Below, piece after piece: positions 60,562-63,221 of a stretch of 64,000 nucleotides of DNA (within the stretch, counting starts at the first letter, position 1; every line of letters begins with the position of its first letter). The notes under the pieces are model-generated. The model did not search any database. It was given only the letters and a program-made list of their open reading frames with translations, and had not been told where the DNA came from. This DNA is from Streptomyces cadmiisoli (GTDB lineage Bacteria > Actinomycetota > Actinomycetes > Streptomycetales > Streptomycetaceae). A program made the translations under genes and the position numbers. The DNA is taken from NCBI RefSeq assembly GCF_003261055.1, contig NZ_CP030073.1, forward strand, positions 7,936,001 through 8,000,000, written 5' to 3'.

Positions 60562-60876
60562 ATGGGTATGAGCCTCGACGAGAGAGTGCGGTCCGCGGTG
60601 GCGGCTCTCCTGCATGCGGCGGGCGAGTCGCAGACCGGGCTGGCCGGCGCGTTGGGCGTGAGCCAGGCCCAGGTGAGCCGCCGTCAGTCGGGCACCGCCG
60701 CGTGGAGCCTGGCCGACTGCGACGCGGTCGCCGAGCACTACGGCATCGACGTGCTCGACCTCCTCGCGGGACCCACCCGGGCCACCGAAGCACTGCCCGC
60801 AGCACGACGCCGCGCTCCGCAGCGGCAGACAACCGCTGTGCGCCCCGCGGTTGTTGGGGACGGAGGAGCCCGGTGA
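60562..60876 (+). CDS. XRE-type helix-turn-helix protein
   Basis: A 104-residue DNA-binding protein. Residues about 6-62 form an XRE/Cro-like helix-turn-helix (ESQTGLAGALGVSQAQVSRRQSG); the basic, Arg/Ala-rich tail has no known domain. Its stop codon overlaps the start of the Tap-like gene (GTGA, 60873-60876), so the two are cotranslated. It is the first gene of a three-gene cassette and may regulate it. Confidence 0.8.
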   Translation: MGMSLDERVRSAVAALLHAAGESQTGLAGALGVSQAQVSRRQSGTAAWSLADCDAVAEHYGIDVLDLLAGPTRATEALPAARRRAPQRQTTAVRPAVVGDGGAR

Positions 60877-62606
60877 CGGATTTCGGTGCGATCGACGCCC
60901 TGCTGGCCGGGGCCCGCAAGGAGGTCCCGCTGCCGTCCGCCGAGGAGCGGCGTGCCCTGCGTGACGGGCTGAACCTCTCGCGTGCCCAGCTCGCGCAAGC
61001 CTTGGACGTCAGCCCCTCCACGGTCGGGGGATGGGAGTCCGGACGGGATCCGAGCGGCGAAGTGCGGGAGAAGTACGCGTACTTCCTCGAGGGAGCGCGG
61101 GCCAAGCTGGCCGCCGCGGCGCAGGAATCCGCGGACCGGGAAGCACCGGACGAGGAGCACTCGGCCGATGCGGACCCGGCCGAGCGGACCCTTGCCGATG
61201 GGCCCCCGGCCGAGGAGCCCCGGCCGAGGAGCCCCGAGCAGGGCGACTCCGTCGCGGCGCGGCCCGGCGCCGACGAGGACGACGTCGTGGCACTCGCCGC
61301 GCCCCAGCCCTGTGTGCTGTGCGGGCAACCCGCCCTGCATCAGGTCGCCGGTTTCCCGCAGCACCTGGACCCGGGTGAGTGCGGCTCGGCCGGGCCCGCG
61401 CGGCCGGAGGCGCCGGCACCGCAGCCGGAGACGTCGGCACCCCGGCACGCCCGCAACGAGCCCCCCGCTGCCGACGCGGAGGTCGCCGTGAAGCGCGGTG
61501 CGGGGAAGCGCGGTGGGCCGGCGGCCGGGGGTGCCACCCGTGGTGGGGCGGCACCCGGCGGTGCGGCGCGTGGAGGGGCCGCGCCCGGCGGCGCGAGTCG
61601 CGGGGTCAAGGTCGTGCCCGTCGGGCGGCGGCTGAAGACGGCCGACACGCCGGATCTCGTCGGGTCGGCCGTCGCAGCCGTGCTCGCCCGGCACGAGGGC
61701 GACGTGGAGGCGGCGACCCGGGCGCTGGTGAAGCGTGCGATCCCGGACGCCATGGCGCTGCTGGACGAGACACGCAAGGGCGGGCGGTACGACGTCATCG
61801 CCCACCCGTGGCTGCCCGAGATCCTGCGCAAGCAGAGCGCCCGCGGCAGCGACCAGATCTGGGAGGCGCGCCCCAAGTGGTCCCGGCACGAACTGCCGCC
61901 GGGCGAGCACGAGGTGACCGCTCTCGACATCAACGGCGCGTATCTGTCCGCCCTGAAGACGCATCTGCCGATCGGACAGCTGGAACACGCCACCGGCGAC
62001 CACCACGACCGCCGCCGTGCCGGTGTCCATCTGATCACCCCGCCCGCCTGGGAGCACGACGACTACCTGCCCAACCCGATCGGCAGCCGGGACGAGCCCG
62101 GTCCGCTGTGGGTGACGGAGCCCACCCTGCGTCTGCTGCTGCGCCTGGCGGATCCGAGACACGGTCTGTGCGACCCGCCGGAGATCCACGAGTCGTGGAC
62201 CTCGGGCGCCACCGAGAACCTGTTGGAGAAGTTCCGGGTGGCGCTCAAGGACGCCCGGGACCGGGCGATCGCCGACGCCGACGACGTGACGCTGGAGTAC
62301 GTGAAGGCGATGTACTCGAAGTTCGTCTCCACGCTGGGCGAGTCGAACTACAACCGGGAGCTGTACCGCACGGATTGGATGCACCTGATCCGCTCCCAGG
62401 CGTTCGTGAACCTGTGGTGGAAGGCGCACCGCGCCTACGACGAGGGGCTGATGGTCGTTCGCGCGATGGGTACCGACGAACTCCACGTGATCGGCGACTG
62501 GCGAGCCGTGTTCCCCGAAGGGCGCGGCGTCACCGAGGTGAAGGTCAAGGACGTGTACCGGGTCGGGACGGACACCGGCGCGGAGAGTGACGGTGCCGAC
62601 GACTGA
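60873..62606 (+). CDS. tap: Tap-like telomere-associated protein with polymerase-like motifs
   Basis: A 577-residue protein. The N-terminal helix-turn-helix (about 20-75, RAQLAQALDVSPSTVGGWESG) matches the start of streptomycete Tap proteins, which bind telomeric DNA and recruit the terminal protein. A CxxC patch (QPCVLCGQPA, near 148) and a Gly/Ala/Pro-repeat linker (about 212-248) follow. The C-terminal half contains TALDINGAYLSAL (Asp352), YVKAMYSKFVSTLG (Lys478) and MGTDELHV (Asp535), spaced and shaped like polymerase motifs A, B and C. Archetypal Tap is about 740 residues, so this is a divergent, shorter form. GTG start behind GGAGGAGCCCG. Confidence 0.65.
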   Translation: MTDFGAIDALLAGARKEVPLPSAEERRALRDGLNLSRAQLAQALDVSPSTVGGWESGRDPSGEVREKYAYFLEGARAKLAAAAQESADREAPDEEHSADADPAERTLADGPPAEEPRPRSPEQGDSVAARPGADEDDVVALAAPQPCVLCGQPALHQVAGFPQHLDPGECGSAGPARPEAPAPQPETSAPRHARNEPPAADAEVAVKRGAGKRGGPAAGGATRGGAAPGGAARGGAAPGGASRGVKVVPVGRRLKTADTPDLVGSAVAAVLARHEGDVEAATRALVKRAIPDAMALLDETRKGGRYDVIAHPWLPEILRKQSARGSDQIWEARPKWSRHELPPGEHEVTALDINGAYLSALKTHLPIGQLEHATGDHHDRRRAGVHLITPPAWEHDDYLPNPIGSRDEPGPLWVTEPTLRLLLRLADPRHGLCDPPEIHESWTSGATENLLEKFRVALKDARDRAIADADDVTLEYVKAMYSKFVSTLGESNYNRELYRTDWMHLIRSQAFVNLWWKAHRAYDEGLMVVRAMGTDELHVIGDWRAVFPEGRGVTEVKVKDVYRVGTDTGAESDGADD

Positions 62607-62645
62607 AGCCGGTAGATTGCCCGCGCGAGGAAAGGAGCACCGGGG

Positions 62646-63221
62646 GTGCCTGAGCGCAACATCGAGTTCGGCAAGTACGGCGCACGCGGCATCAAGGGGC
62701 ACGAAGCCGCGGCCCGGCAGCTCGACGCGCTCGCCGGGTTCGTCGTCACACCGATCACGGCCCGCCGAGGCCTGCTCGCGCGGCTGCATTACCTGACCCG
62801 CACCGACCACGCCCGCGCGGCGGCACGCGAGGCCGGTCTGACCGTCACCGACCGCACGCTGAGGGCGTGGCTTGAGGGCGGGCGCAGCCCGTCGGCGCGG
62901 AACCTCGCGCGTATCGAGACCGCCTACCGGACGGTCCGTCGGCACAACGTGGCCCGCTACCTCCTCGCCCGGCTCAACCGGGAGGGCCGCGGCACCCGCG
63001 TGGAGTTCCACCCGTTGAACCAGTCCCAGGTGGACCGGCCGCGCCAGCGCCCGATCGGCTACCGCACCGTCAACGTCCGCCACTGGGACCGGGTCGTCGA
63101 GGCCTGGGTGACGGACGACCTCGAAGCCCTGGACCAGGCCTGGGTCAGTGACGTGGTCGTCGACCTCGGCTCCGAATGGGGTCAGTACGAGTACGTCACG
63201 AACATCGGTTTCGCCGCGTAG
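62646..63221 (+). CDS. DNA-binding protein in terminal-protein (Tpg) position
   Basis: A 191-residue basic protein 39 bases after the Tap-like gene, the position of the telomere terminal protein gene tpg. It has a helix-turn-helix (about 54-92, RAAAREAGLTVTDRTLRAWLEGGRSPSARNLARIETAYRTV) arranged as in Tpg, and an acidic C-terminus ending GQYEYVTNIGFAA. Length fits Tpg (about 185). Overall sequence is not that of the archetypal Tpg, so it may be a variant terminal protein or just a regulator. The GTG at 62646 follows AAAGGAG by 8 bases. Confidence 0.55.
   Translation: MPERNIEFGKYGARGIKGHEAAARQLDALAGFVVTPITARRGLLARLHYLTRTDHARAAAREAGLTVTDRTLRAWLEGGRSPSARNLARIETAYRTVRRHNVARYLLARLNREGRGTRVEFHPLNQSQVDRPRQRPIGYRTVNVRHWDRVVEAWVTDDLEALDQAWVSDVVVDLGSEWGQYEYVTNIGFAA

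Follow-up and report, generated by a model that had tools for sequence, protein, structure and literature searches.

A three-gene cassette in Streptomyces cadmiisoli

The window analysed here is a stretch of 64,000 nucleotides of Streptomyces cadmiisoli DNA (C1:7936001-8000000), in a genome of 10.24 Mb made of C1 (9,269,371 bases) and C2 (969,901 bases). It carries a cassette of three genes, encoding a protein with an XRE/BetR-type helix-turn-helix (HTH), P0001, a protein resembling the telomere-associated protein Tap, P0002, and a small HTH protein, P0003, which stands in the position of tpg (Table 1). The three open reading frames (ORFs) lie where an earlier inspection of the letters, the sequence-only reading, had put them, with the sizes it gave (104, 577 and 191 amino acids, aa). 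P0002 starts with GTG and overlaps the stop of the XRE gene by 4 nt. P0003 also starts with GTG, 39 nt past the P0002 stop, and is preceded by the stretch GGAAAGGAG. Scanning the cassette for promoters and terminators gave nothing useful. We propose that the three genes form a non-archetypal cassette for telomere replication, with the Tap-like protein as a predicted protein-primed polymerase of family-B fold that lacks the exonuclease. We consider this reading likely.

Table 1. Features of the cassette, in positions of the window.
Feature	Positions	Strand	Basis
XRE/BetR-type HTH gene, P0001, 104 aa, first in cassette	60562..60876	+	ORF; Pfam BetR
Tap-like gene, P0002, 577 aa: N-terminal HTH, Cys/His stretch, low-complexity linker, predicted C-terminal phi29-polymerase-like domain	60873..62606	+	ORF; NCBIfam Tap; predicted fold
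HTH_3 domain of P0002, aa 27-64	60951..61064	+	Pfam PF01381, E 8.3e-9
Cys-X2-Cys...His...Cys stretch of P0002, aa 147-170	61311..61382	+	residue conservation
Polymerase-like domain of P0002, aa 256-577	61638..62603	+	
Motif A DINGAYLSAL of P0002, aa 352-361	61926..61955	+	conservation, hhalign, model
Motif B YVKAMYSKFVSTLG of P0002, aa 476-489	62298..62339	+	conservation, hhalign, model
Motif C MGTDELHV of P0002, aa 532-539	62466..62489	+	conservation, hhalign, model
Small HTH gene, P0003, 191 aa, candidate terminal protein/primer	62646..63221	+	ORF; neighbourhood; Tpg likeness of the HTH half

A large family of Tap-like proteins with invariant motifs

P0002 has at least 1709 homologues at E<=1e-3 (120 listed), a lower bound since only the 7991 candidates with most words in common were scored. 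The three motifs that had been picked out by eye, DINGAYLSAL, YVKAMYSKFVSTLG and MGTDELHV, do follow each other in the A-B-C order. In an alignment of 112 rows (51 domain stretches from the window and related loci, and 61 database proteins), residues D352, N354, Y357, K478, Y481, K483, T534, D535 and E536 are invariant in all rows. With so many homologues and such invariant residues, these motifs are not a product of chance. Between the HTH and the linker, C147, C150, H164 and C170 are invariant in 76 sequences and possibly form a small metal site; this Cys/His stretch is missing in some distant relatives (L108, L111).

The family is variable in its architecture. A protein of 762 aa that carries the annotation DnaB-like helicase (L114 1709-3997), encoded directly upstream of a terminal protein (TP)-like gene, has motifs A and C of the polymerase-like domain and is a helicase-polymerase fusion. 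Some other members neighbour DnaB-like helicases or are fused to them. Two further distant partners of TP-like genes differ in their motifs: a protein of 1601 aa (L100 172-4977) has motif C, with motif A not found by pattern, and one of 544 aa (L112 3333-4967) has neither by pattern. Misleading database names, such as acyltransferase or dihydrolipoamide S-succinyltransferase, may hide the family. Scans of viral_contigs confirmed no relatives, and phage records, where the small protein but not the Tap-like protein was searched, held none of the small protein. A phage or viral origin of the cassette was rejected as weak on these grounds.

A predicted phi29-like fold

The suspected likeness to family B polymerases is supported by structure prediction: the model of the C-terminal domain of P0002 has the palm/fingers fold of the phi29 group and matches residues 123-495 of phi29 polymerase (PDB 2ex3, 2pyj). 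In this domain model D352 lies in strand 91-98, motif B falls mostly inside helix 216-232 and motif C sits at the turn between strands 272-277 and 281-285. When aligned by hhalign with seven phage protein-primed polymerases, DINGAYLSAL falls on phi29 DVNSLYP, AMYSKFVS on NSLYGKFAS, with Tyr481 on the Tyr of NSLYGKF, and GTDELHV on DTDSIHL, with D535 on the second Asp of DTD. Both putative catalytic Asp, D352 of motif A and D535 of motif C, are present and aligned with their phi29 counterparts.

Several observations speak against the polymerase reading. The first Asp of DTD is a Gly in P0002, and the motif-B Lys aligns with phi29 only across a 4-residue gap. The profile score of the domain against the seven phage polymerases (20.8) is not significant, being equalled in 12 of 150 column shuffles, and archetypal Tap gives no signal against the same set (16.9, 56/150 shuffles as high). 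Of the 42 Pfam families matched by the 112 members, the 25 shown do not include PolB, and neither do the 12 shown for Tap. The fold is itself a prediction, and phi29 polymerase is part of the AF2 training data. Since shuffles matched the score, we dropped homology to PolB as sequence evidence, although hhalign puts the three motifs in register, and our claim rests on structure and motif order. Sequence searches of PDB gave no DNA polymerase among the matches listed. The full-length model of P0002 has a pLDDT of 66.7 and a pTM of 0.39, and its structure matches are mostly to HTH proteins. We saw no N-terminal 3'-5' exonuclease domain in P0002, which has the HTH, the Cys/His stretch and the linker instead. 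For this reason we regard it as a relative, possibly working like phi29 polymerase, and not as a full member of that group.

One might speculate that the domain is the relic of a dead polymerase, a scaffold that joins terminal protein and telomere, with the first bonds left to a host polymerase (DinB, Pol I). The Gly in motif C and the missing exonuclease domain would fit such decay, and earlier proposals assigned this step to DinB (PMC4513846). Yet D352, N354, K478, Y481, K483, T534, D535 and E536 do not vary in any of the 112 rows, motifs A and C are kept even in the DnaB-fused protein, and both Tap and Tac are reported to nucleotidylate their own TPs without added polymerase (PMC4513846). 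We find a dead polymerase improbable.

Relation to archetypal Tap and Tpg

Matched against the NCBIfam Tap model NF047542, P0002 scores 71.3 bits, with its best stretch at aa 4-132, for a cut-off of 600. Judged by sequence, it is related to archetypal Tap and stands outside this equivalog. The relation extends to the polymerase-like domain, whose profile scores 36.2 against the C-terminal part of Tap, a value reached by none of 150 shuffles (maximum 24.6). Comparisons of whole profiles of the P0002 family and Tap gave E-values of 5.6e-16 and 4.4e-12, as single comparisons of shallow profiles. Archetypal Taps have their own version of the motifs: motif A as GIDVN.AF or GLDLN.AF, then K.TVKGG.GKL and LSDC.VY in 11/11. 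These proteins come from the 12 best loci and were picked by the motif-A pattern, which one locus (L089) lacked, so that only motifs B and C were unselected. A shared motif C was also sought in the global alignment of the family with Tap and given up, because the motif remained unaligned and the likeness is read by eye only.

The small protein P0003 has 878 homologues at E<=1e-3, and nearly all of the 120 listed are 191 aa long. Tpg were picked by pattern at 6 of the 12 Tap loci, and P0003 shares 18-19% identity with three archetypal Tpg. Its profile scores 35.0 against Tpg, where no shuffle among 150 exceeds 20.7, in the HTH half only. In Tpg, T114 and D115 form a priming block (PMC3572947). 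The alignment of P0003 with Tpg shows no counterpart of the TTDD block around T114. Among 18 diverse members of the P0003 family, S176 is Ser/Thr and Y181 is Tyr in all 18, and S127 is Ser/Thr in 14. From this conservation, S176 and Y181 would be the best candidate acceptor residues.

Relatives at replicon ends and their distribution in the genus

We surveyed 295 genomes of the genus, taking small-protein matches at E<=1e-10, fragments included, as presence, and scoring per genome the first 3 Tap candidates and at most 11 small-protein candidates. A control on 101 genomes with up to 32 candidates returned the same 46 genomes with the small protein. Homologues of the small protein occur in 116/295 genomes. 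They tend to lie near chromosome ends: matches occur in 22 single-contig genomes, and in 16 of these a copy lies at <=100 kb from an end (2.3% expected). In seven of the 22 both ends carry copies, which in three cases lie within 0.6-3.1 kb (G065, G129, G049). Exceptions are G159, G193, G268 and G079, where the distance is 220-485 kb, G040, where the match is a fragment at up to 105 kb, and G290, at 4.0 Mb. Distances to the right end are upper bounds, as lengths were rounded, and the positions for G040 and G080 come from the 101-genome run.

Plasmids tell a more mixed story. From 154 plasmid records we took an even sample of 60, with topology checked for some. Here 20 relatives lie <=10 kb from an end against 7.9 expected (0 of 20,000 simulations). 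This excess is due to the 31 lower-ranked rows, mostly below 60% identity with three partial matches above it (17/31 against 5.1 expected). The best-ranked full-length relatives, with 65% identity or more, are not enriched there (3/29 against 2.8). In NZ_CP107868 an HTH gene, the Tap-like gene and the TP-like gene are neighbours of a 'Helicase associated domain' gene, at 2.3-4.7 kb from the end. On a linear plasmid of S. albidoflavus, a TP-like gene sits 0.7 kb from the end. On pshk1, a linear plasmid of S. yangpuensis, a distant Tap-like/TP-like pair (L101 3244-5561) is found at 0.8-3.2 kb from the end. Plasmid pSHK1 was classed with Sg2247-type telomeres, whose proteins were reported as not found (PMC8743542). 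It is a guess that such pairs serve Sg2247 telomeres, and pshk1 is perhaps just a shared name. Another linear plasmid, pRLB1-9.2 (NZ_CP041652.2), has Tap-like and TP-like genes of the family behind dnaB (L099 5001-7216); strain RLB1-9 is studied in PMC7205883.

The TP-like gene and archetypal Tap occur inversely across genomes. Tap scores over the cut-off in 197/295 genomes. The TP-like gene is found in 69 of the 86 genomes without Tap, i.e. with an HTH-level match or none, and in 47 of the 209 others (Fisher 2.0e-20, phylogeny uncorrected). Counting 8 partial matches as Tap-lacking changes this little (73/94 against 43/201, Fisher 2.3e-20, phylogeny again uncorrected). The 86 genomes were sorted by eye from E-values, the automatic tally below the cut-off being 98.

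Could these genes simply form a plasmid cassette for replication initiation, partition or regulation, with no telomere role, on plasmids that are linear by chance? Most database names among the matches listed are 'transcriptional regulator' or 'helix-turn-helix', some members have the DnaB-like helicase neighbours and fusions noted above, and the best-ranked relatives lie away from plasmid ends. Moreover, of the 18 plasmid records that we opened, some of them picked for nearness to an end, 2 are annotated as circular and 16 as linear. But this explanation is at odds with the chromosomal end location, at both ends in 7/22, with the inverse occurrence with archetypal Tap and the profile link to it, and with a predicted polymerase fold, which is unsuited to a mere regulator. 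We give it very little credence.

The host genome

The termini of C1 and C2 are inverted repeats throughout the 12 kb that were compared, with 100% and 99.9% identity. The gene in which C1 breaks off shares 31% identity with a helicase gene near the end of a linear plasmid. Hence, both replicons look linear. Since C1 stops inside this helicase-like gene, the assembly probably lacks the C1 telomeres. No Tap scored over the cut-off in a profile search of the host genome. One match, at C1:3853548, was discarded as it lies in a 474-aa HTH protein without polymerase motifs; another is found at C1:8996260. A weak match to archetypal Tpg at C1:372911-373243, 30% identical and with two stops, is perhaps the remnant of a replaced telomere system. 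The gene in the window is the only one of P0002 type in the genome, and a second small TP-like gene, 76% identical to P0003, lies on C2 (289601-290173; L127 5602-6174). The cassette is the best candidate that we found for the telomeres of this host.

The XRE gene and the gene neighbourhood

Among the best 80 of 154 genome loci found, the Tap-like gene is immediately preceded by a P0001-like gene in 62 and immediately followed by a P0003-like gene in 58, with both flanks occupied in 46. P0001 matches Pfam BetR PF08667 (E 3.3e-6, 27.7 bits for a cut-off of 21.6). In six distant plasmid relatives (L101, L104, L105, L108, L111, L113) the XRE/BetR-type domain is the N-terminus of the Tap-like protein itself, and P0001 shares 51% identity, over 90 aa, with this N-terminus in L108, from an S. 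albidoflavus linear plasmid. Pfam BetR matches 34/112 members of the Tap-like family (E up to 10). This fusion and the neighbourhood link the XRE gene to the system. As the same domain heads the Tap-like protein in distant relatives, P0001 is probably a dedicated partner or regulator.

A candidate system for telomere replication

The predicted fold, the end location of relatives and the inverse occurrence with Tap support the variant telomere replication system that the sequence-only reading had suggested. A number of results weigh on the other side. Between the cassette itself and the right end of C1 there are 1.27 Mb. The link to Tap is weaker in other set-ups (probabilities of 23% and 62%, E 8.8e-4 and 7.5e-5), and the profile alignments with Tap take in motif A, in one case reach the motif-B region and never include motif C. 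P0003 resembles Tpg in the HTH half only, and its profile scores nearly as high against the HTH of Tap (28.8). This is why we describe P0003 as an HTH protein in the tpg position and not as a full-length homologue of Tpg. The Tap-like gene has no TP-like gene directly downstream in 22 of the 80 loci, even though the locus continues; the TP-like gene is elsewhere in two of these (upstream in L040, 3.4 kb further on in L008). To this one should add the best-ranked plasmid relatives that are not end-enriched, the 17/86 genomes lacking both Tap and the TP-like gene, and the uncorrected phylogeny behind the inverse occurrence.

Under the telomere reading, the cassette would operate as follows. The N-terminal HTH of the Tap-like protein would bind the 3' overhang of the linear replicon. 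The phi29-type core, deprived of exonuclease and with D352 and D535 as metal-binding pair, would use a hydroxyl of the 191-aa protein as attachment point for the first deoxynucleotide and add a short extension. By analogy with Tap/Tpg (PMC4513846), a host polymerase would then complete the gap. The 191-aa protein, as the primer, would remain on the 5' end.

One can go a step further. Six telomere classes are described, with end-patching proteins known for only two (PMC8743542). We lean slightly towards the idea that the telomere-associated proteins of Streptomyces, including archetypal Tap, make up a single superfamily of protein-primed family-B polymerases without exonuclease. These cousins of phi29 polymerase would have swappable N-terminal modules (Tap-type HTH, XRE/BetR-type HTH, DnaB-like helicase) beside a small primer protein, and the pshk1 pair would be the missing Sg2247-type machinery. 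If true, this contradicts published claims that Tap lacks any polymerase motif and that no family-B polymerase is encoded in Streptomyces. Among the papers listed in searches of the open PMC literature, with preprints and subscription papers outside the search, none links Tap to phi29 or family B in its title or listing. A phi29-like core in such a widespread family would answer which enzyme makes the protein-primed bond and would explain an end-copying activity so far without a recognised enzyme family. It would also mean that telomere replication in bacteria and protein-primed replication of the phage type are linked by common descent and not by convergence. D352 and D535 are the two residues with which to test the polymerase reading, and the cassette is a candidate machine for genomes without Tap.

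Comparison with known systems

Among the closest known systems is the GtpB/GtpA pair of S. griseus (SGR_RS00475/SGR_RS00470), which is also non-archetypal. GtpA is quoted as 18% identical to Tpg, and chromosomal GtpB-GtpA homologues as c. 50% identical to those of S. griseus (PMC7205883). These figures fit the P0002/P0003 family: P0003 has its 18-19% with Tpg, and the S. griseus homologue P0288 (49 member sequences) shares 49.0% identity with P0002 over 529 aligned columns, or 45% by BLASTP. Judged by this last comparison, our cassette is probably of the GtpB/GtpA type. There is thus a fairly good chance that we are looking at the known pair under another name and that only the polymerase fold is new. 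This is compatible with the telomere reading and bears on novelty. On the other hand, P0288 may be another S. griseus paralogue. Unlike GtpB-GtpA, given as two ORFs in a table legend of PMC7205883, the pair here is preceded by an XRE gene. The Tac/Tpc pair of SCP1, for which nucleotidylation is reported (PMC4513846), is likewise non-archetypal.

With archetypal Tap/Tpg the cassette shares the tap-tpg gene order, the N-terminal HTH of Tap, a common C-terminal stretch including motif A, and a TP of some 185-191 aa with an HTH. It differs by a shorter Tap-like protein (577 against 703-755 aa), by the extra XRE gene, and by the low identity of P0003 to Tpg and its lack of the TTDD block. From phi29 polymerase P0002 differs by the N-terminal HTH and linker where no exonuclease domain is seen, by the Gly in place of the first Asp of DTD, and by a profile similarity that is insignificant. 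Like phi29 polymerase and its TP, the cassette combines the predicted fold and the A-B-C order of motifs with a small putative primer protein encoded beside the polymerase.

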